NCBI GenBank assembly: GCA_025934695.1
Contig: JAICWS010000001.1
Coordinates: forward strand, 62,001 to 126,000
Reading direction: 5' to 3'
DNA: 64,000 nt
Source: Alphaproteobacteria bacterium
GTDB taxonomy: Bacteria > Pseudomonadota > Alphaproteobacteria > Micavibrionales > UBA2020
Both the position numbers and the translations under genes were made by a program. Below, one piece after another: positions 52,328 through 61,701 of the stretch; positions within the stretch are counted from its first letter, which is position 1; each line of letters starts with the position of its first letter. A model generated the notes under the pieces. The model saw only the letters and a program-made list of their open reading frames with translations, did not search any database and had not been told where the DNA came from.

Positions 52328-53737
52328 ATGTCGGCAGGCGGCGATTTCAATGAAGCGAGTATGACACCGGCGGGATTGCTCGAGGCGGTTTCGACCGGCA
52401 ATTTTCGTTTCGTACGCGCCGCGCTGAAAGCGGGCATTTCCGCGAACGTCCGGGACGAGGCCGGATGCACGCCGCTAATGCGCGCAGCCGTGCGCGGCAA
52501 CGTGCCGATCGCGTCACTACTGCTCGGTTACGGCGCCGAAGTGAACGTCGCCAACGATGCCGGAGACACGCCTTTGCAATACAGCGTCAATGCCTGCAGC
52601 GCGGATATGCAGGATTTGCTGCTGTTATCGGGCGCCGATCCGCTCGCTGCCGGAAGCCCTCGCCATGGCGCCATGCTGGCGGCACGCGCCGCCGCCCGGG
52701 GCGTCACGCCGGCGCTTTCTGCGTTGCTCGGAAACGGCGTGAGTCCGGACGCGCAGGAGGACAAGATGCCGCTGCTGACCCTCGCCGCGGCGGGCGGTCA
52801 TGCCGAAACGGTAGCCGCACTGTTGAAAGCGGGCACCAATGTTCACCAATACGACAAGAACGGCCAGTCGGCGCTACGCGCGGCGATGAAGGCCGGCAGT
52901 CTTGAGTGCGTAAACCTTCTCCTGGATGCCGGGGCCGACCCACACATGCGCTCGAATATCCCCGACGAGCGCACCGACGATTACCATTTTTCACGTGACT
53001 GCAAGCCCGAGATTGCAGCTGCGGTCGACAAGGCCTACCAGAAATTCCTCCTGATCCATGCGTCGCTCGACGGCGACGCGGCGAAGGTCGCAGAGCTCAT
53101 CGGCAAAGGCGAGCCCGTCGATACATTTACTTTCGACGGCGTCACCGCGCTCACCTGCGCCTGCAACCAGAAGCATCCCGGGGTCGTCAAGCTGCTGCTC
53201 GAGGCCGGCGCAAATCCCAATCTGGCGACGCGCGAGGGAAGGGAGCCGCTTTACCTGTCGATGAACAAAGGAGATACCGAGGCCGTCGCGCTGCTTCTGA
53301 AAGCTGGGGCCGTTCCCAGTCCCATCGCGCTGCATTCCGCGGTCGGACGTAAACAGGCCGGGATCGCCAAGGCGTTGCTCGACCATGGCGCCGATCCGCA
53401 TGTTACAGCGCGCGAGACGAAATATTTTCCCGAGCCTGCCGATTTCAATATCACCCAGATGGGCGTCCAGCCCGACGATTACCCGCTTCATTCGGCGATC
53501 CGGAACGGCGACGCGGAGACCGTCGCCGTGCTGACGAAGGCGGGAGCGAGAACGACGATTGCCAACGCGGCGGGAGAAACGCCTGTCACACTCGCGAAGG
53601 ATCTCGGCAACGAGGCGGTAAGGGACCTGGTCATGGAGCGTTACGCGCAGGAGATCGACGGCATCGCGGACAGCGCCATTCGCCTGGGCCAGGAGACGGC
53701 GCCGATGAAGAAAATTAAATTCAAGGCGGGGCCCTGA
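52328..53737 (+). CDS. Ankyrin-repeat protein 1, 469 aa
   Basis: About ten ankyrin repeats in two blocks (residues about 12-225 and 250-430), with typical TPLMRAAVRGNVPIASLLLG and ALTCACNQKHPGVVKLLLEA helices. A non-repeat insert (SRDCKPEIAAAVDKAYQKFL) separates the blocks. The end carries a short basic tail (SAIRLGQETAPMKKIKFKAG) that recurs in the next protein. No signal peptide, so cytoplasmic or exported by an unrecognised route. Ankyrin stacks bind proteins; the partner is unknown. Overlaps the next ankyrin gene by one base (TGATG). Confidence 0.88.
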   Translation: MSAGGDFNEASMTPAGLLEAVSTGNFRFVRAALKAGISANVRDEAGCTPLMRAAVRGNVPIASLLLGYGAEVNVANDAGDTPLQYSVNACSADMQDLLLLSGADPLAAGSPRHGAMLAARAAARGVTPALSALLGNGVSPDAQEDKMPLLTLAAAGGHAETVAALLKAGTNVHQYDKNGQSALRAAMKAGSLECVNLLLDAGADPHMRSNIPDERTDDYHFSRDCKPEIAAAVDKAYQKFLLIHASLDGDAAKVAELIGKGEPVDTFTFDGVTALTCACNQKHPGVVKLLLEAGANPNLATREGREPLYLSMNKGDTEAVALLLKAGAVPSPIALHSAVGRKQAGIAKALLDHGADPHVTARETKYFPEPADFNITQMGVQPDDYPLHSAIRNGDAETVAVLTKAGARTTIANAAGETPVTLAKDLGNEAVRDLVMERYAQEIDGIADSAIRLGQETAPMKKIKFKAGP

Positions 53738-54969
53738 TGTCGCTGTCGGATGATTTTGCGGACGCAGGCGGCTTCGTAGACTACACGCTTGAAGAGGCTG
53801 TGAATGCGCTCTTTGACGCTATCAATATGGATGACCGCCAGGTCGTGGGCGCCCTGATCGAGGCGGGCGTGCCCGTCGACGCGCGCAACGAATTCGGCGA
53901 TACGCCGCTGATCCTCGCGGTTCATCGCGGACGCTACGAGATGGCGCAGTTCCTCCTCGACATGAAGGCCGATCCCAACGCTAAGAACGCGGAAGGCTTC
54001 ACTCCGCTGTTCTACGGCGTCCGCCAAAACCTAGGCATGCTCGACCTGCTGTTTGCGCATGGCGCCGCTTACCCTGAAGGCAAAGCCCCTGCTATCGCCG
54101 CGCGCCTGACAGAAGCCACCTTCGCAGGCTATGACCGCGTGGTCGAGGCGGCGCTGGCCGCGGGCGCGGATCCAAATACAGTCGCGCCCAATTGCGACGA
54201 CGCGTGCCTCCTGCACCTCGCTGCCCAAAACGGAAATCCCCGGATGGTGAAAGCGCTGATTGCGGCGGGAGCCGAAGTTAACATGCTGGATAAGAACCAG
54301 CGCTCCGTCTTGAGGGCGGCGTTGCGGGGCGGAAACCTGGAATGCGTGACGGCCATTCTCGAAGCGGGCGCCGACACGCGCAACCGGAGCTTGGACCAAA
54401 AGAGCGGCCGCACGATTTCCGATGAAAGCGCATCGGTCGATTGCGATTTTGACATCGCCCGCGCCGTCACCCAGGCGGCGATGAAATTCAATCTGCTGGA
54501 CGCAGCCGCAAGCGGTGCTGCCAAGGAAGTGCAGATGTTGCTGGAAGCTGGTGTTTCGCCGGACGCGAAGCTCGACGAGGACGGAAACACCGCCTTGTAC
54601 CGGGCTTGCGCAAAGGGACATGCTGACGTGGCCAAGGCTCTTCTAGAACATGGCGCTAACGTCCACTTTCGTCCCAAAGACAAGCCCAGCGCCTTATTCA
54701 TGGCCGCCCTGAGTGGTTCTGCGGAGTGCGTGCGCGTTCTTGGCGAGGCGGGTGCGAATGTCTTGGCCCAAGAGCCTGGCGGCGCCAGCGTTGTAAATAT
54801 GGTGGAACAGGCGCCGGCAGCCGGCGTCTCGGCGGAGATGAGCATCGTCGTCCGCATCCTCAAGGCTGCGGAAGTCGAAAAGATGGCGCAGAACGCGATC
54901 CGCCTCGACGGGACCGTCCCCCCGATGACAAAACTGCGCTTCCGGCTGCGCCAGCCGTCGGGAGTTTGA
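53737..54969 (+). CDS. Ankyrin-repeat protein 2, 410 aa
   Basis: Paralogue of the preceding protein with about nine ankyrin repeats (for example TPLILAVHRGRYEMAQFLLD and TALYRACAKGHADVAKALLE). The same mid-protein insert is present (DCDFDIARAVTQAAMKFNLL) and the same basic tail (NAIRLDGTVPPMTKLRFRLR), so both are conserved design elements rather than chance. The N-terminal 15 residues are acidic. The stop abuts the start of the third ankyrin gene. A tandem duplication origin is inferred. Confidence 0.88.
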   Translation: MSLSDDFADAGGFVDYTLEEAVNALFDAINMDDRQVVGALIEAGVPVDARNEFGDTPLILAVHRGRYEMAQFLLDMKADPNAKNAEGFTPLFYGVRQNLGMLDLLFAHGAAYPEGKAPAIAARLTEATFAGYDRVVEAALAAGADPNTVAPNCDDACLLHLAAQNGNPRMVKALIAAGAEVNMLDKNQRSVLRAALRGGNLECVTAILEAGADTRNRSLDQKSGRTISDESASVDCDFDIARAVTQAAMKFNLLDAAASGAAKEVQMLLEAGVSPDAKLDEDGNTALYRACAKGHADVAKALLEHGANVHFRPKDKPSALFMAALSGSAECVRVLGEAGANVLAQEPGGASVVNMVEQAPAAGVSAEMSIVVRILKAAEVEKMAQNAIRLDGTVPPMTKLRFRLRQPSGV

Positions 54970-55356
54970 ATGAAAGACAATGTCCAGAAGACGTTCTTCG
55001 CCGCCATCGTCCTCGGCCATATCGACGAGGTGAGGGGCGTTTTGCCTGGCCATCCCGATGCCATCTCATGGATCTCCCCGGCGGGATATCCACCTCTGCA
55101 CATGGCAATCCTTGAGCATCAACCGCAGATCGCCGTCCTTCTCGTGGAGTACGGCGCCGGACTGGAACAGAAGGCGCATGGCGAAACCGCGTCGACGCTT
55201 GCAGCGCGGAAAGGCATGCTGGAAATGCTGCACGACGCGGCAGCGCGTGTGGAGCAACGCGGTTCGGACGCCGTCGCGGCCTGCCATGCGGGACTGAATC
55301 AGCCCGTCAGCGTCCCGCGCAAGCCGCTGTCGTTGAAGCGCAGGCCCTTGGTTTAG
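54970..55356 (+). CDS. Short ankyrin-repeat protein 3, 128 aa
   Basis: Two to three ankyrin repeats ([60 protein letters not shown]) and a basic C-terminal tail ([15 protein letters not shown]) that resembles, more weakly, the tails of the two larger neighbours. It begins directly after the stop of ankyrin gene 2, and its stop overlaps the convergent trmFO by four bases. It could be a truncated paralogue, but its frame and tail are intact. Confidence 0.82.
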
Positions 55357-56705
55357 GCCGCCAGTTTCACGTCTTTAATCCAATTGTCGAAATCGGCCAG
55401 CGCGCGCGAGGTATAGGCCCTCTTGCGCTCCTTGCCCTGGATTTTTTCGTCGATAGGCGGGAAGAGGCCGAAGTTCACGTTCATCGGCTGGAAGGTTTCG
55501 GCATTCGCGCCGGTGGTGATGTGGTTGAGCAGCGCGCCCATGGCGGTCGTTGCGGGCGGCGTCGACGGCTGGCGGCCCAAGGCCTCGGCGGCGGCGAAAC
55601 GTCCGGCCATCAGGCCGACCGCCGCGCTTTCGACATAGCCTTCGCAGCCGGTGACCTGCCCGGCAAAGCGCAGGCGCGGCATGGCCTTCAGGCGCAGCAC
55701 CGCATCGAGCAGCTTGGGACTGTTGATGAAGGTATTGCGGTGAATGCCGCCTAGCCGCGCGAATTCCGCGTTCTCGAGGCCGGGGATCATGCGGAAGATG
55801 CGCGTCTGTTCGCCGTATTTCAGCTTCGTCTGGAAGCCGACGATGTTGAAGAGCGTGCCCAAGGCATTGTCCTGCCGCAGCTGCACGACCGCCCAAGGGC
55901 GCCGGCCGGCGTGCGGGTCAGTCAGGCCCACGGGCTTCATCGGTCCGAAGCGCAAAGTATCCTTGCCGCGCTCCGCCATAACCTCGATGGGCAGGCAGCC
56001 TTCGAAATAGGGCGTGTTCTTTTCCCATTCCTTGAATTCGGTCTTTTCCGCGGCGAGCAAGGCGTCGATGAACTTATAATAGTCTTCCTTCAGGTCGAAG
56101 CCGCAGTTGATGTAATCCTTGCCCGTGCCGCCCGGACCCGGCTTGTCGTAGCGCGACTGGTACCAGGCGCGTTCCATGTTTATCGACTCTCTGAAAACGA
56201 TGGGGGCGATGGCATCGAAGAAGGCGAGGCTCTGCTCATTCGTCAGTTCGAGAATGGCTTTCGACAGCGCGGGCGAGGTAAGCGGACCGGTCGCGATGAT
56301 GGTGCTGTCCCATTCCGTCGGCGGCAATCCTGTAACCTCGCCGCGCTCAATAGTCACGAGCGGGTGCGATTTCAGCTTGTCGGTGACATCGGCCGAAAAG
56401 CCGTCGCGATCGACGGCGAGCGCGGAGCCCGCAGGCACCTTGTGCCGGTCGCCGGCCGCCATGATCAGCGACCCCGCGCGGCGCATTTCTTCGTGCAGCA
56501 GGCCGACCGCGTTATTTTCAAAATCGTCGGAACGGAAAGAGTTCGAGCACACGAGCTCGGCGAAATTCTCCGTCTGGTGGGCTTCCGTCTTGCGCACCGG
56601 ACGCATTTCATGGATCACGACGGGCACGCCCGCCTGGACGATCTGCCAAGCCGCTTCTGATCCGGCCATGCCGCCGCCGATGATGTGTATGGGCTTCGTT
56701 TTCAT
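55353..56705 (-). CDS. trmFO: Methylenetetrahydrofolate--tRNA-(uracil-5-)-methyltransferase
   Basis: FAD enzyme that makes 5-methyluridine 54 in tRNA using methylenetetrahydrofolate. N-terminal FAD motif [40 protein letters not shown] with the conserved Cys; [15 protein letters not shown] with a second conserved Cys; [20 protein letters not shown] and [20 protein letters not shown]. 450 residues fits the family. Monocistronic by appearance, convergent with the ankyrin genes. Confidence 0.96.
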
Positions 56706-56746: not shown

Positions 56747-57457
56747 TTACTTGGCGTCCGGGGTGGGCAGGGTTGGCGCTTCATCCGGGCACAGGGCGGA
56801 TTCCTGTTTGTAGTTCTCGATCGTGTCGATGGAACCCTGCCGGGCGCGGCGGGCCGCGATAAGCTTTTCTTTCATCGGCTGGATCGCCTCAACGATCCCT
56901 TTTTCGGTCTTTTTCACCTGGTCCGGCGCCTGGCTCATGGGGACGGGCCCCAAGGGGCCCAGCGACCTTAAGTACCAGAGCAGGTCCATTTTGATCTTGG
57001 GCATATATTCATTGATCGTCTTGAGGTCAGTTGCGACGTGCCGCTCCTCGTGAAGCTTGACCATCTTCTTACGGCATTCGTGGCCCGGCTGCTGCAGTTC
57101 CTTGGCAAGGAAGATGGTGGGCTCATAGTAAATGCTGAAATAAACCTTGTGCACATAAAAGCAGGTATTGCCCGCTGAATCGCTCAGATTCGTGAAATCA
57201 AATCCATATTGAGCGCCTTCCACGCCGCCGACGGTGACGCCTTCGACGAACCATTTGCTGTCAGTAGCGAAAGTGGAGTCGGGAATCTTCGCCATTTCGG
57301 ACGTCAGCTCCTTGATGGGAACATTGGTGACGTATTCCGGCTTTTGCGGCATGAAGTAGACTTCGGCGTGCGGCGCCTCCTGCGGCGGCGGGCAGACGGT
57401 CAGCTGCGCCAGGATGGCGGCTTTGGCGAGCGTAAGAGCGGGAGATGAGTAAGCCAT
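56747..57457 (-). CDS. Four-cysteine HExxH protein 1 (putative secreted metalloprotease)
   Basis: 236 residues; last of four tandem paralogues. Zinc-type motif MVKLHEERHVATDLKTI near residue 138. Four cysteines at equivalent places in all four proteins: in LTVCPP, NTCFYVHKV, GHECRKKM and SALCPDE, suggesting two disulfides and export. N-terminal hydrophobic stretch SPALTLAKAAILAQL serves as possible signal but lacks the usual basic start. Common core: DSKW..GGVTV, YEPTIFLAKEL-PGHEC. No named family recognised. Starts 11 bases after paralogue 2. Confidence 0.75.
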   Translation of the reverse strand: MAYSSPALTLAKAAILAQLTVCPPPQEAPHAEVYFMPQKPEYVTNVPIKELTSEMAKIPDSTFATDSKWFVEGVTVGGVEGAQYGFDFTNLSDSAGNTCFYVHKVYFSIYYEPTIFLAKELQQPGHECRKKMVKLHEERHVATDLKTINEYMPKIKMDLLWYLRSLGPLGPVPMSQAPDQVKKTEKGIVEAIQPMKEKLIAARRARQGSIDTIENYKQESALCPDEAPTLPTPDAK

Positions 57458-57468
57458 GTATCCCCTCG

Positions 57469-58197
57469 CTATTTCGCGGACGGCGCGGGAGAGGGAACGG
57501 CGGCGGCTTTGCCGGGCGCCGCGCAGAGGGATTTTTCTTCCTTGAAGTTCTCCGGCGTGTCGATAGACGATTGCCGGTCGCGCCGGTCGGACAAAAGCTG
57601 GCCGACCATCGGCTTCAGGATCCTGTCGACGGCTTTCTCGAGGTCATGTTGCTGGCCCGCGACGTAATCGCTGTGGAAGGGGCCTTTCACGCCGCCGCCG
57701 CCGCGCAGGAACAAGAGCATCTTCATCTTCATCCTGGCGATACCGTCGTCGAGAAGCGCGATGTCGGCCGCGACATGGCGTTCCTCGTGGTCCTTCGTCA
57801 TTTTAAGCCGGCATTCATGGCCGGGGGCGCCCAGTTCCTTCGCCAGGAAAATCGTCGGCGCATAGCTGACGACAAGCTGGACTTTGTCGATGTAAATGCA
57901 GGCATTGGCGTCTTCGTCGGCAAGCTGCGATGAAAATTCGACGCTGATGTCGCCCGCGCTCGTTTCGGCGGCCATCGCGCCGCCGGGAAAGAGCTGACTG
58001 TCGGATTCCAGTGTCGAATCCAGATCTCCCTGCAGTGTCCCGTTGAGCTCGGCCAGCGGCGCGGTGGTAATGTATTTCGGCTTCGCCGCCGCAAGCATGA
58101 TTTCGACCCGCGGCGCCTGCGCTGCGAGCGGGCAGGCCGACATCTGCGTGAGGACAAAGGCTTTTGCGAGTAAAAGAGCGGGGGAGACGATGGCCAT
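57469..58197 (-). CDS. Four-cysteine HExxH protein 2 (putative secreted metalloprotease)
   Basis: 242-residue paralogue. HExxH motif in MTKDHEERHVAADIALL; cysteines in MSACPLA, NACIYIDKV, GHECRLKM and KSLCAAP. N-terminus IVSPALLLAKAFVLTQM parallels protein 1. The last 15 residues are Ala/Pro-rich. The ATG at 58197 is used; the frame is open to 58317 only as a shadow of the upstream gene. It overlaps the stop of paralogue 3 by one base. Closest to protein 1 (APTIFLAKELGAPGHECRLK against EPTIFLAKELQQPGHECRKK). Confidence 0.75.
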   Translation of the reverse strand: MAIVSPALLLAKAFVLTQMSACPLAAQAPRVEIMLAAAKPKYITTAPLAELNGTLQGDLDSTLESDSQLFPGGAMAAETSAGDISVEFSSQLADEDANACIYIDKVQLVVSYAPTIFLAKELGAPGHECRLKMTKDHEERHVAADIALLDDGIARMKMKMLLFLRGGGGVKGPFHSDYVAGQQHDLEKAVDRILKPMVGQLLSDRRDRQSSIDTPENFKEEKSLCAAPGKAAAVPSPAPSAK

Positions 58198-58904
58198 TAC
58201 CGGGATCCGTCGAATTTGGGGAATTGCCCGGGGCACAGGGCCGTGTCGCGCTGATAATTCGGCAGCGTGTCGATCTCGGCCTGCTTCTGCCGTCGCAGCG
58301 CGACAAACTGCTGCCACTGCGGCGCGATGGCCGCGCCGATCTGTTCGACAACGCGGCGCTTCTGGCTGTCAAGGTCGCCCACGGCATAGGGTCCTTGCGG
58401 CCCCAGCGATTCTGCGATCGCCTGCAACGATTTTTTGAGGTCGGGCACGGCGTCGGTCAGGAGCCTCACGTCCGTGTCGACGTGGCGCTTTTCGTGCATG
58501 AGCGTGGCGCTGTAGCGGCATCCCATGTTCAGGAAGTCCGACGCGATATATACTGACGGATTATAGGTGATCGTGTAGCTGACCTTGTTGACGGTGAAGC
58601 AGGCGGCGCCGGTGCGGACCTCGGTCATGGCCTGGAACCCCACCTGTATCGTGTCCATCAGGTTCGCGCCGGGCTTGACCACCGTGACGCCGCCGACCAT
58701 CCACTTGCCGTCGGTCGCCAGCGTTGAATCGGGGTTCATCATCTGCTGCGTCAGTTGCGCCGAGGTCATGTTGGTGATGGTCGGGCTGTCCTGCTTGACG
58801 AACTCGACGTCGACATCGACAGGCCCCTGCGCCGGGCATTGCGCGGCGCTCAAGGTGGCAAGAATATATCCGGCGGAAAGGGTGAGCGGGTCAAGTCCGA
58901 GCAT
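58197..58904 (-). CDS. Four-cysteine HExxH protein 3 (putative secreted metalloprotease)
   Basis: 235-residue paralogue. HExxH motif in ATLMHEKRHVDTDVRLL; cysteines in AAQCPAQ, AACFTVNKV, NMGCRYS and TALCPGQ. N-terminus GLDPLTLSAGYILATLSA. Closest to protein 4, with which it shares the ending TALCPGQFPKFDG versus TAACPGQFPPYDG. The catalytic Glu and both His are present, so it may be active. Begins eight bases after paralogue 4. Confidence 0.75.
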   Translation of the reverse strand: MLGLDPLTLSAGYILATLSAAQCPAQGPVDVDVEFVKQDSPTITNMTSAQLTQQMMNPDSTLATDGKWMVGGVTVVKPGANLMDTIQVGFQAMTEVRTGAACFTVNKVSYTITYNPSVYIASDFLNMGCRYSATLMHEKRHVDTDVRLLTDAVPDLKKSLQAIAESLGPQGPYAVGDLDSQKRRVVEQIGAAIAPQWQQFVALRRQKQAEIDTLPNYQRDTALCPGQFPKFDGSR

Positions 58905-58912
58905 GCGGGGGC

Positions 58913-59611
58913 CTATTTCCTCACGCCGTCATAGGGCGGGAACTGACCCGGGCAGGCCGCGGTGTCGCGCTTGTAATCGTCGGCCGTATCCACCTGTCCC
59001 TGCGCCTGCTGGACCTGGTAGGACAGATTGCCCCATTTCCCCTTGATGGCCTCCATCGCTTTTTTCATCAGCTCAGTCTTCAAGGATTCGGTCAGCGTCT
59101 CGGGCACCGGCGGCTGCGGGGGCCGCGAGGCCATGTAATCCTCCAGCGCCTGCTGCAGGACCGGCAGGTTGTTGTTGATGATCGTCTCGTCGAGGGCGAC
59201 GTGACGTTTTTCATGCGCGAGCGTCGCATTGGACACGCAATCCGACAGGCCGGCGGCCAGGTAAATCGTCGGGCTGAAGGTGACCGTGTAATTGACCTTG
59301 TCGACCGACAGGCAGACCGTGCCCGCGGCAGCCGGGTGGGTCTTGAATTCGATGTCGATGCCTTCTTTCAGGGCCATGCCGCGGGTCAGGGTCGCACCGC
59401 CCGGCATCCATTTCCCGTGCCAGTAAGCAGTCGAATCCCGGTCCGAGCGCAGGCTCGCCATCTGTTCGGGCGTCTGGTTGCCGACGACGGGATTGTCGGT
59501 CGTCACCAGCTGGACGTTTACCTGCGGCGCGGTCTGCGCCGGGCATTCCGCGACGGTCATGCTGGTAAGGATATACGCGGCGGACAGCGTCAGCGGATCA
59601 AAACCGATCAT
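58913..59611 (-). CDS. Four-cysteine HExxH protein 4 (putative secreted metalloprotease)
   Basis: 232-residue paralogue, first of the four after the L,D-transpeptidase. HExxH motif in ATLAHEKRHVALDETII; cysteines in VAECPAQ, TVCLSVDKV, LSDCVSN and TAACPGQ. N-terminus GFDPLTLSAAYILTSMTV. The gap to the transpeptidase gene is 37 bases, so one transcript is likely. The neighbouring cell-wall enzyme suggests an envelope role for the group; this is inference only. Confidence 0.75.
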   Translation of the reverse strand: MIGFDPLTLSAAYILTSMTVAECPAQTAPQVNVQLVTTDNPVVGNQTPEQMASLRSDRDSTAYWHGKWMPGGATLTRGMALKEGIDIEFKTHPAAAGTVCLSVDKVNYTVTFSPTIYLAAGLSDCVSNATLAHEKRHVALDETIINNNLPVLQQALEDYMASRPPQPPVPETLTESLKTELMKKAMEAIKGKWGNLSYQVQQAQGQVDTADDYKRDTAACPGQFPPYDGVRK

Positions 59612-59648
59612 GGGAAAGCGTCCTTGAAATGAAGGGGAGAAGTATCGA

Positions 59649-60257
59649 TTAAGGCTTGATAATTATGGGAGTGCCGTTCTGGACGAGCTTCCAGATTTCA
59701 TTGATTTCATCATCAGATACGGCGATGCAGCCGTTTGTCCAGTCCTGGTTTTGCGCGCGGCGCCACCAGACCCAGCTCTTGTCGTTCGGCTTGCCGTGAA
59801 TAAAGATGCTGCCGCCCGTTCTATAGCCCAGGCGATGAGCGCGGGCGACGTCCTCGGGATTCGGGTAGGAGATGTGCAGCGAACGGTGATAGGCGCTGCG
59901 GTCGTTGCGCTGATCGATGTAATAGGTGCCTTCCGGCGTCCGGCCGTCGCCTTCGCGGGTCTTCGCCCCGTTCGGCTCGAAACCCAGCGACACGCGATAA
60001 CTGCGGATGGTCCGGCCCTGCGCATCCAGAAGATCGAGGCGGCGCTCGGACTTGATCACCCTTATGGATGAGGCTTTGACATGCGACAGATCGGGATAGG
60101 TCGGCGCCGCGTCTTCATCGGGCAGCAACTGATTGAAAGAAGGCTGGAGAAGGGGAATAGGCGGCTGGTTGGCTGCGATCTTGGTTTGAGCTTGAGCAGA
60201 CCCTGCGGCGGTCACCGCAATAAAGAAACAGACGATTAAAAACTTCCCCGGACGCAT
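59649..60257 (-). CDS. L,D-transpeptidase (YkuD domain)
   Basis: Peptidoglycan cross-linking or protein-anchoring enzyme acting in the periplasm. Signal peptide RPGKFLIVCFFIAVTAAGSA with AQAQ cleavage site. The YkuD domain covers the last 150 residues, with SIFIHGKP and the catalytic Cys in WTNGCIAVSDDEINEIW. The ATG at 60257 gives the clean signal peptide and has GAGGGG before it, although closely spaced; a longer frame to 60290 lacks a ribosome-binding site. 202 residues. First gene before the four HExxH paralogues on the same strand. Confidence 0.9.
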   Translation of the reverse strand: MRPGKFLIVCFFIAVTAAGSAQAQTKIAANQPPIPLLQPSFNQLLPDEDAAPTYPDLSHVKASSIRVIKSERRLDLLDAQGRTIRSYRVSLGFEPNGAKTREGDGRTPEGTYYIDQRNDRSAYHRSLHISYPNPEDVARAHRLGYRTGGSIFIHGKPNDKSWVWWRRAQNQDWTNGCIAVSDDEINEIWKLVQNGTPIIIKP

Positions 60258-60330
60258 ACCCCTCGGACCCCTGAGTCCTCCATAATTCAATGATAATACG
60301 GATCATGAATTAAATAAAATGGATTTTCGC

Positions 60331-60930
60331 TTAAGCAAGGACCGGAACAGCTGTTTTATTCCGTCTTATCAATAGGTAAGCCGTCATAGAACAATTTGTG
60401 AACACCATGAGAACAGGATAGAGCCAAGTGGCGGGTGTATAACGTTCTATGGCAAAGACGGAAAGAAAGGCACCGGCGGTGAAAAACGCATAGCCGGCGG
60501 CAGGCTCTTCATAAGGACGCTCCCAAGCCTTGCGCACCGTGGGGATGAAACCGACCGTATCGATGATGCAGACGAGAATAACGGAATAGATCGGGGTCTT
60601 CGTTACGATCCACAAAGGCACCGCCATCAAGGAAACAATAAGGGTGATCCAGTCGCCGCGGGTATAGCCGCGATCGCCGCGCATATAGCCGATGGCGACA
60701 AGCAAAAAACATGTGGCGCAGGCAAAACCGCGCGCCCAGGAGCCGGGCCCAGCGCCTTCCGCCACCTGCGCCGCGAAGCCAACGGATGAAATCGCGCCCC
60801 AGATCAGCCAAGAAAAGGCATGCGGCTTCGCGCCGTGGCGGAAGACGCTGTTGAAGTAGAAGAGACGGGAGATGAAGATCATTCCCGTCGACAAAACGCC
60901 GAAGATTTCTGTTTGCGTCAACATGTTCAT
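60331..60930 (-). CDS. Multi-pass membrane protein, paralogue of next gene (199 aa)
   Basis: About six to seven hydrophobic segments. Conserved with its neighbour: KPHAFSWLIWGAISSVGFAA, DWITLIVSLMAVPLWIVTKT, SVILVCIIDTVGFIPTVRKA, YTPATWLYPVLMVFTNCSMT. No named family recognised; the Pro/Trp/Asp pattern recalls small transporter-like folds such as PQ-loop proteins, but this is weak. The ATG at 60930 overlaps the upstream gene's stop as ATGA; an upstream TTG at 60936 is less likely. Probably co-transcribed with its paralogue. Confidence 0.72.
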   Translation of the reverse strand: MNMLTQTEIFGVLSTGMIFISRLFYFNSVFRHGAKPHAFSWLIWGAISSVGFAAQVAEGAGPGSWARGFACATCFLLVAIGYMRGDRGYTRGDWITLIVSLMAVPLWIVTKTPIYSVILVCIIDTVGFIPTVRKAWERPYEEPAAGYAFFTAGAFLSVFAIERYTPATWLYPVLMVFTNCSMTAYLLIRRNKTAVPVLA

Positions 60931-61568
60931 TGCCAATGCAGGGATGATGCCTCTTCGCCGGGGGCAAGTCCAGTCTTTGCGCGCTTCGGATGCAGCTGCC
61001 GGCGCCGGATCAGGATATAGGAAGCCATGGTCGCGTTCGACAGCGTCAGCACCGCGGGATAAAGCCAGGTCGAGGGCGTGTAATTCTCGATCGCGAGCAG
61101 CGAGAGGAAGGCGCCGCCGCAGGAGAACATATAGCTATAGGGCGTTTCTTCCTTCGGCTTGCGCCACACTTTGCGCGCGGTCGGCAAATAGCCCGAGGAG
61201 TCGATCATGCAGACGAGGATGACCGACCAGACCGGCGTCTTGGTGATGATCCAGAGCGGAATTGCCGTGAAGGCGATGCCCAGCGTGATCCAGTCCGCAC
61301 GCCGGATGTCGCGCTCGCCCTTCCACCAGCAGAGCGCCAAAATGACATAGCATGTCACGCAGCCCACGCCGCGCACCCAGGCGGCGGGACCCGCATGTTC
61401 CGCGATTTGCGCGGCGAGGCCGATGGCGGAAATCACGCCCCAGATCAGCCACGAAAAAGCATGCGGCCGGGTGCGGCCCTTCATCATGCTCGTCAAATAG
61501 GTCGCGCGGGACGACAGCATCATCCCGATGGCGATAAAGGCGTAGAGGTCTTTGAGTATGAGCGTCAC
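60927..61568 (-). CDS. Multi-pass membrane protein, paralogue of preceding gene (213 aa)
   Basis: Same architecture as the 199-residue protein: RPHAFSWLIWGVISAIGLAA, DWITLGIAFTAIPLWIITKT, SVILVCMIDSSGYLPTARKV, YTPSTWLYPAVLTLSNATMA. The frame is open to 61619 through the REP-like doublet; GTG at 61568 (VTLILKDLYA) is the best start outside the repeat arm, although no strong ribosome-binding site is seen. The tail is basic and hydrophilic. Function unknown. Confidence 0.7.
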   Translation of the reverse strand: MTLILKDLYAFIAIGMMLSSRATYLTSMMKGRTRPHAFSWLIWGVISAIGLAAQIAEHAGPAAWVRGVGCVTCYVILALCWWKGERDIRRADWITLGIAFTAIPLWIITKTPVWSVILVCMIDSSGYLPTARKVWRKPKEETPYSYMFSCGGAFLSLLAIENYTPSTWLYPAVLTLSNATMASYILIRRRQLHPKRAKTGLAPGEEASSLHWQ

Positions 61569-61581
61569 AATAATCCAACAC

Positions 61582-61701
61582 GTAACCCCGGCGAAAGCCG
61601 GGGTCCAGAGTCCATCCATTCAAACGGTGAGCGACAGTGTAAACGACTTCTGCCGTTTGCACTGCAACATTTCAGACCCCGGCTTCCGCCGGGGTTACCG
61701 A
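61582..61701. repeat. REP-like inverted doublet 4
   Basis: The left arm GTAACCCCGGCGAAAGCCGG (61582-61601, continuing GGTCCAGAG) and the right arm CAGACCCCGGCTTCCGCCGG (61673-61692, continuing GGTTACCG) are inverted copies of one palindrome. They lie between serA and the membrane-protein pair, all on the minus strand, and close to both gene ends, so they may help end serA transcription. Confidence 0.85.

Follow-up and report, generated by a model that had tools for sequence, protein, structure and literature searches.

The described family to which the proteins considered here come closest is DUF922 (PF06037), a predicted zincin according to the parts of PMC3650047 that concern it, and one DUF922 protein has been listed as a Zn-dependent protease in a proteomics study of vesicles (PMC11788153). 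Another zincin-like protein, CLCA_X, is given in the same portion of PMC3650047 with the motif HExxHxxxD. Here we analyze a window of 64,000 nucleotides from an alphaproteobacterium of the Micavibrionales (contig JAICWS010000001.1, positions 62,001 to 126,000), in which four consecutive paralogous genes, A to D, lie on the minus strand downstream of a YkuD-domain gene and encode HExxH proteins with four cysteines. A first-pass annotation, made from the letters alone, had read them as secreted, disulfide-bonded metalloproteases, perhaps acting on envelope or wall-anchored proteins. We conclude with moderate confidence that they belong to a widespread family without a name, whose members are probably zinc metallopeptidases of the periplasm and distant relatives of DUF922.

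Most of what had been annotated for the array itself was confirmed: four consecutive genes of 232 to 242 residues (232, 235, 242, and 236 aa), an HE(E/K)RHV motif and exactly four cysteines in each product, and tight spacing behind the YkuD gene. The gap between the YkuD gene and A is 37 bases, followed by 8 bases between A and B, an overlap of 1 base between B and C (TAATG, in which the start codon of C shares one base with the stop codon of B) and 11 bases between C and D. The TIFLA/TIYLA core reported before the third cysteine is present in the array, except in gene B, which has SVYIA there. The length of 282 aa for gene C in the open reading frame list is an artefact of an upstream GTG within gene B. 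In the pairs compared the paralogues are 26-42% identical, with C, B and A at 42, 35 and 32% identity to D, respectively. The array is far beyond chance, because homologues with the same conserved residues occur in dozens of genomes.

Three further copies are present in the window genome outside the array, two of them adjacent on one contig (C2) and one on another (C3). Family members were identified in 51 of 55 genomes (the window genome and its relatives), including all 36 genomes of the order sample with at least 90% completeness and at most 5% contamination (own included). The family extends to 39 of 190 genomes in the class sample, 37 of these labelled as other orders, and to 32 of 398 in the phylum sample (the window genome itself, 7 others from its class and 24 from different classes). 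No viral relatives were found with one narrow query; the pattern fitted 17 viral stretches, none of them homologous. None of the four window proteins reached a Pfam or NCBIfam cut-off, nor did any of 41 members in either library or any of 10 further members in Pfam, and a scan of PHROGs gave only weak scattered matches. No family of these three libraries was weakly matched in more than 3 of the 41 members; the recurring weak Pfam matches include Peptidase_M91 (3/41) and eCIS_core (2/41). No published description of the family was found in the open-access library searched. The earlier statement that no named family could be recognized holds in so far as no Pfam or NCBIfam model covers the family; a distant relative, DUF922, is nevertheless detectable.

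Residues are numbered here as in gene B, and conservation was counted in an alignment of 71 members, four pairs of which are more than 90% alike; two fragments (L013 and L024_1447) and two repeats (L074, the window, and L075, G019) were left out. The cysteines are nearly universal (C23 and C102 in 71/71, C129 and C224 in 70/71), as are H137 (70/71), E138 (69/71) and H141 (70/71), so that HExxH, the signature of the zincins (Peptidase_MA clan), is found in 69 of 71 members. Further conserved positions are G72 (69/71) and Y217 (67/71). The one member without C129 also lacks C224; as the two are lost together, a disulfide C129-C224 and, by exclusion, a second one between C23 and C102 are suggested. 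Lipoprotein anchoring at the first cysteine was considered and rejected under the lipobox rule: A to D have Glu, Gln, Ala and Val, respectively, immediately before this cysteine, and there is no recurrent lipobox.

The third metal ligand could be sought in either of two aspartates. D145, the last residue of HExxHxxxD, was discarded as a universal ligand, being Asp in only 60 of 71 members and Asn, Leu, Met or Trp in eight extra members (L197 and L204 of the same class, six of other classes), all of which retain HExxH and the Asp of an IDT/LDT motif. Since D212 is invariant (71/71) and D145 variable, D212 is the better candidate and, judged from the alignment, the likeliest third ligand. The same variability separates the family from CLCA_X, in that the final Asp of the shared HExxHxxxD motif is not universal here; the likeness is one of motif only and implies no kinship. 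Two copies have a broken motif. In the homologue of gene A in G001, a genome of the same genus (L009:5300-5998), it reads HLKRH, with both His and D212 kept and Glu replaced by Leu, and in L026_2268 (L026:2268-3164) both His and the Glu are lost and D212 is kept.

Proteins of DUF922 were collected for profile comparison because weak Pfam matches to this family recurred. Such matches, below threshold, were seen in 2 of the 41 members (best E 0.17) and in 2 of the 10 further members (E 0.11 and 0.44). The resulting set comprised 24 proteins; 5 of 30 loci had no HExxH frame, and a wrong frame at L067 and a second frame at L053 were excluded. In hhalign, run as single comparisons rather than database searches, the family matched DUF922 with a probability of 92.7 in one direction and 87.5 in the other, the alignment being colinear across about 187 columns. 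Both HExxH motifs and the C-terminal Asp are in register in one direction, and in the other the printed path is out of register around the motif. When the HExxH columns were masked, probabilities of 52.1 and 70.6 were obtained over 191 columns. Reversed alignments gave 0.3-0.7, and the two other HExxH families that served as controls, Peptidase_M78 (rows from 7/15 loci) and Peptidase_M48 (25/25), gave 0.9/2.8 and 6.6/10.7, with only 8-11 motif columns aligned. A second comparison, between two other alignments, yielded 83.0 over 65 columns with HExxH and the Asp in register. The comparison of profiles that the first-pass annotation had proposed thus matched DUF922, alone of the three HExxH families compared, with neither control above 10.7, and it indicates an ancestry shared beyond HExxH itself. 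The family is read as a distant homologue of DUF922 rather than as a part of it, because the Pfam cut-off is not reached.

The order in which Cys, Pro, HExxH and the C-terminal Asp follow one another is common to the two families, as are hydrophobic, signal-like N-termini. In 16 aligned DUF922 proteins Pro, HExxH and Asp are invariant, and two Cys and a Trp nearly so; in our family HExxH, the Asp and the first Cys have counterparts, Pro is found in 46 of 71 members, and no counterpart was seen for the second Cys or for the Trp, which in DUF922 precedes HExxH. DUF922 further differs in having two conserved cysteines instead of four, and in the stretch from HExxH to Asp (71 residues in B, 50 in the DUF922 protein L045). 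Both occur in some genomes (e.g. G137 and G144), at separate places. No DUF922 protein was found by way of viral contigs.

Structure prediction, also proposed at the outset, gave confident AlphaFold models of B (pLDDT 85.6, pTM 0.78) and D (pLDDT 85.8, pTM 0.77), both built on the same 16 sequences, and no significant match to a solved structure. The models agree on an N-terminal helix, predicted only weakly, strands, and a 40-residue helix that carries HExxH close to its beginning. A short strand leads to another long helix (residues 175-211 in B, 174-208 in D), which ends at or shortly before the invariant Asp, and a last short helix follows. HExxH in a long helix is a likeness to the Peptidase_MA clan; the want of a significant solved-structure match is a difference from it.

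Sec signal peptides carry basic residues near the N-terminus. Lys and Arg were counted in the first 8 residues of the 81 proteins, out of 85, that satisfied the rule for assigning starts; some assigned starts or first cysteines are visibly wrong in both groups. Such a residue was found in 17 of 23 proteins from outside the order. Judged from the rest of the family, export of the window copies would be likely. Genes A and B start with MhGhDPLTL, and the M-h-G-h-D-P pattern was considered as a general signal and dropped, its three occurrences at the DNA level in the own genome all lying in family genes.

The YkuD partner reaches 85.2 bits against the Pfam YkuD model (cut-off 23.4). Among solved structures it is closest to 8ikr (E 2.1e-07), followed by 7o21 (uncharacterized) and 4xzz (a conserved hypothetical secreted protein), the sequence of which is also that of 4y4v. 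PMC10653827 identifies 8ikr as E. coli DpaA and uses 4y4v, which appears to be Csd6, as a complex with D-Ala. According to a review, DpaA lacks an Arg that is conserved in L,D-transpeptidases (PMC12729407). The catalytic Cys of the partner lies in TNGCIA, and all 11 YkuD relatives examined have T[ND]GC[IV]A at this place as well as a Lys aligned with Lys83 of DpaA (residue number obtained by counting). The Arg conserved in L,D-transpeptidases we take to be that of GCxR. Like DpaA/LdtF/YafK (8IKR), the partner has the catalytic Cys, lacks an Arg following GCx and carries a Lys where DpaA has Lys83; unlike them, it scores only 39.5 bits against the NCBIfam model LdtF_DpaA_YafK (NF040599), far below the cut-off of 365. 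Because 8ikr is the best match, no Arg follows GCx and the Lys is in place, the partner looks hydrolase-like (DpaA-like) rather than like an L,D-transpeptidase. Of the earlier label, the YkuD domain is retained, and L,D-transpeptidase gives way to DpaA/YafK-like for the enzyme.

Relatives of the window YkuD gene were sought in the 55 genomes, and weaker matches (E 1e-9 to 1e-6) were kept outside the neighborhood count. A strong match was found in nine genomes of one bacterial family (f1), from three genera; in all nine it lies directly upstream of family genes on the same strand, with 1, 1, 1, 2, 2, 3, 3, 3 and 4 family genes per region, and in seven a GIDA/TrmFO gene then follows. Some of these nine are near-identical kin (G003, G005); f1 comprises nine further genomes, in which YkuD was not matched. 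A second match in G001 falls on contig C135, for which no family gene is listed, and two more at E <1e-30 (G026 and G050) do not adjoin a family gene. The co-occurrence with YkuD genes, whose survey had been suggested by the first-pass annotation, was borne out in f1 and not elsewhere, where the neighbors are unrelated housekeeping genes: family genes lie between folD-yggT and acnA, behind COQ9 near cytochrome c maturation genes, at rplO/secY, or behind AhpC/TSA. No universal partner was seen, and the YkuD link looks like a trait of one lineage.

Some of these contexts recur. In L189, L190, L191 and L192, all of the same order, the ribosomal protein operon contains a co-directional family gene flanked by rplO (L15) and secY, with two family genes at this position in L189 and L191. 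In L106, L177, L178, L179 and L181 the first 4 bases of a family gene are shared with a COQ9-like gene, and cytochrome c maturation genes are close by; Pfam COQ9 was assigned to its homologue in L105.

In a quickly built tree with many weak deep branches, of which only two groupings are used, A and B form one group and C and D another, and both groups include copies from other genomes. For this reason the A/B and C/D types are placed, on the basis of the sequences, before the diversification of the genus, each having then duplicated again. The terminal branches of A (0.79) and C (0.98) are longer than those of B (0.28) and D (0.20), and the sister of A is the G001 copy with HLKRH. By pairwise counting, with synonymous sites near saturation, dN/dS against G001 is 0.14 for D, 0.17 for the YkuD gene and 0.43 for A against its sister; the values for B (0.45) and C (0.49) come from comparison with a G001 paralogue only, without a clear partner. 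Constraint is therefore strong on D and on the YkuD gene and weaker on A.

Several observations weigh against a family of periplasmic metallopeptidases related to DUF922. The Pfam cut-off for DUF922 (27 bits) is reached by none of the 4 window proteins, the 41 members or the 10 further members; masking HExxH lowers the profile probability to the values given above, and the second comparison spans only the C-terminal part. For DUF922 itself, no tested function is given in the portions of PMC3650047 and PMC11788153 considered here. A zincin fold is not established, as the models match no solved structure significantly (best Foldseek E 0.11 and 0.26 for the two models); sequence-based searches of solved structures likewise gave nothing significant, and the best VIA hit, at Z 5.0, is a designed helical protein, absence from the VIA list excluding no family. 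That D212 should lie near HExxH is an argument from helix-hairpin geometry in the models, not a measurement. Of 58 N-termini from the order, only 9 carry Lys or Arg among the first 8 residues and 49 do not; in 30 of the 58 this stretch contains an acidic but no basic residue. Lacking the usual basic residues, the window copies are uncertain candidates for export. The copies with a broken motif, the G001 homologue of A and L026_2268, may be inactive paralogues. Lastly, in the regions examined the link to YkuD was not seen outside f1. The annotation of secreted, disulfide-bonded metalloproteases is in this light retained for a multi-copy, probably disulfide-bonded, HExxH metallopeptidase-like family with a conserved YkuD operon, and restricted in that this operon was seen in f1 only.

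Some of these observations would also fit proteins with a DUF922-like metal site that are not proteases, the zinc being structural and the protein a periplasmic chaperone or inhibitor, with four copies serving different binding specificities. The models unmatched to solved peptidases, the Leu in place of the catalytic Glu between two retained His in the G001 homologue of A, and the higher dN/dS of A compared with D all speak for this; E138, however, is present in all but two of the 71 members, a degree of conservation that a site with a purely structural role would not require, and we regard a non-protease as unlikely. Less likely again is that the proteins are exported and target the prey envelope when the bacterium preys on others. 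The genus of the window genome also includes a record titled Micavibrio sp., and for M. aeruginosavorus 49 predicted proteases and peptidases are given in PMC3189940; yet the family was also found in 37 genomes from other orders of the class and in 24 from other classes, which would make a predatory role secondary, and many copies adjoin housekeeping genes, for instance rplO-secY. In the NCBI taxonomy the genus Micavibrio belongs to the Bdellovibrionota, while related records are titled Alphaproteobacteria.

How much the YkuD gene says about function is a separate question. That it and the array are neighbors without a functional link, which is compatible with a metallopeptidase, is a serious possibility that we rate a little short of even: the nine paired genomes are close kin rather than independent cases, and elsewhere the family genes stand at the unrelated positions listed above, at folD-yggT/acnA, COQ9/cytochrome c maturation, rplO-secY and AhpC/TSA. 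On the other side, the pair is kept in 9/9 f1 genomes with a strong YkuD match and in three genera, in constant order and direction, with 1-4 family genes. A functional link could take the form of a wall release-and-process module, in which a DpaA-like hydrolase frees peptidoglycan-attached proteins and the diverged periplasmic metallopeptidases trim or degrade them, but we consider this specific version improbable. If it were true, the specificities of the paralogues would differ and their copy number (1-4) would follow the repertoire of wall-anchored proteins.

Table 1. Features of the array and its neighbors in the window
Feature	Coordinates	Strand	Remark
YkuD-domain enzyme, DpaA/YafK-like, first of conserved pair	59649-60257	-	ATG at 60257; TTG at 60290 also open
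Gene A, 232 aa, HEKRHVALD	58913-59611	-	Cys 23/100/125/220
Gene B, 235 aa, HEKRHVDTD	58197-58904	-	Cys 23/102/129/224
Gene C, 242 aa, HEERHVAAD	57469-58197	-	Cys 22/100/129/225
Gene D, 236 aa, HEERHVATD	56747-57457	-	Cys 22/99/128/223
HExxHxxxD codons, gene A residues 133-141	59189-59215	-	Counted from residue numbers
HExxHxxxD codons, gene B residues 137-145	58470-58496	-	Counted from residue numbers
HExxHxxxD codons, gene C residues 137-145	57763-57789	-	Counted from residue numbers
HExxHxxxD codons, gene D residues 136-144	57026-57052	-	Counted from residue numbers
Downstream co-directional gene, GIDA domain	55353-56705	-	Pfam GIDA 326.8 bits

The GIDA-domain gene that follows the array, which we take by name to be TrmFO-like, is probably a conserved neighbor with a function unrelated to it. 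Promoter-like sites are not above chance (1 found, 1.6 expected), terminator-like sites are (13 found, 4.9 expected), and no minus-strand terminator-like site lies between the array genes. Upstream of the YkuD gene are two neighboring genes with similar, membrane-protein-like sequences (60331-60936 and 60927-61619), the product of the former having no Pfam match at 1e-5; in further genomes, too, homologues immediately precede the YkuD gene. Two genes at 52328-54969, on the strand opposite to the array, overlap by one base and are presumably ankyrin-repeat-like.

If the family does consist of periplasmic zinc metallopeptidases, the N-terminal hydrophobic segment would take the protein into the periplasm, where two disulfides would form, most likely C23-C102 and C129-C224. 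H137 and H141 would bind zinc, with E138 as the general base and D212, not the variable D145, as the likeliest third ligand, and the enzyme would cut peptide bonds of envelope proteins. In the lineage of the window, bonds between protein and peptidoglycan, or those of the stem peptides, may be the target of the YkuD partner, and wall proteins, in place or released, may be processed by the paralogues. The family itself, widespread and strongly conserved and with a metallopeptidase signature, lies outside the Pfam and NCBIfam models scanned and provides a second, independent set of sequences for DUF922, which is equally uncharacterized. In one lineage its association with a DpaA-like enzyme in an operon gives a concrete, testable lead to a cell-wall substrate.

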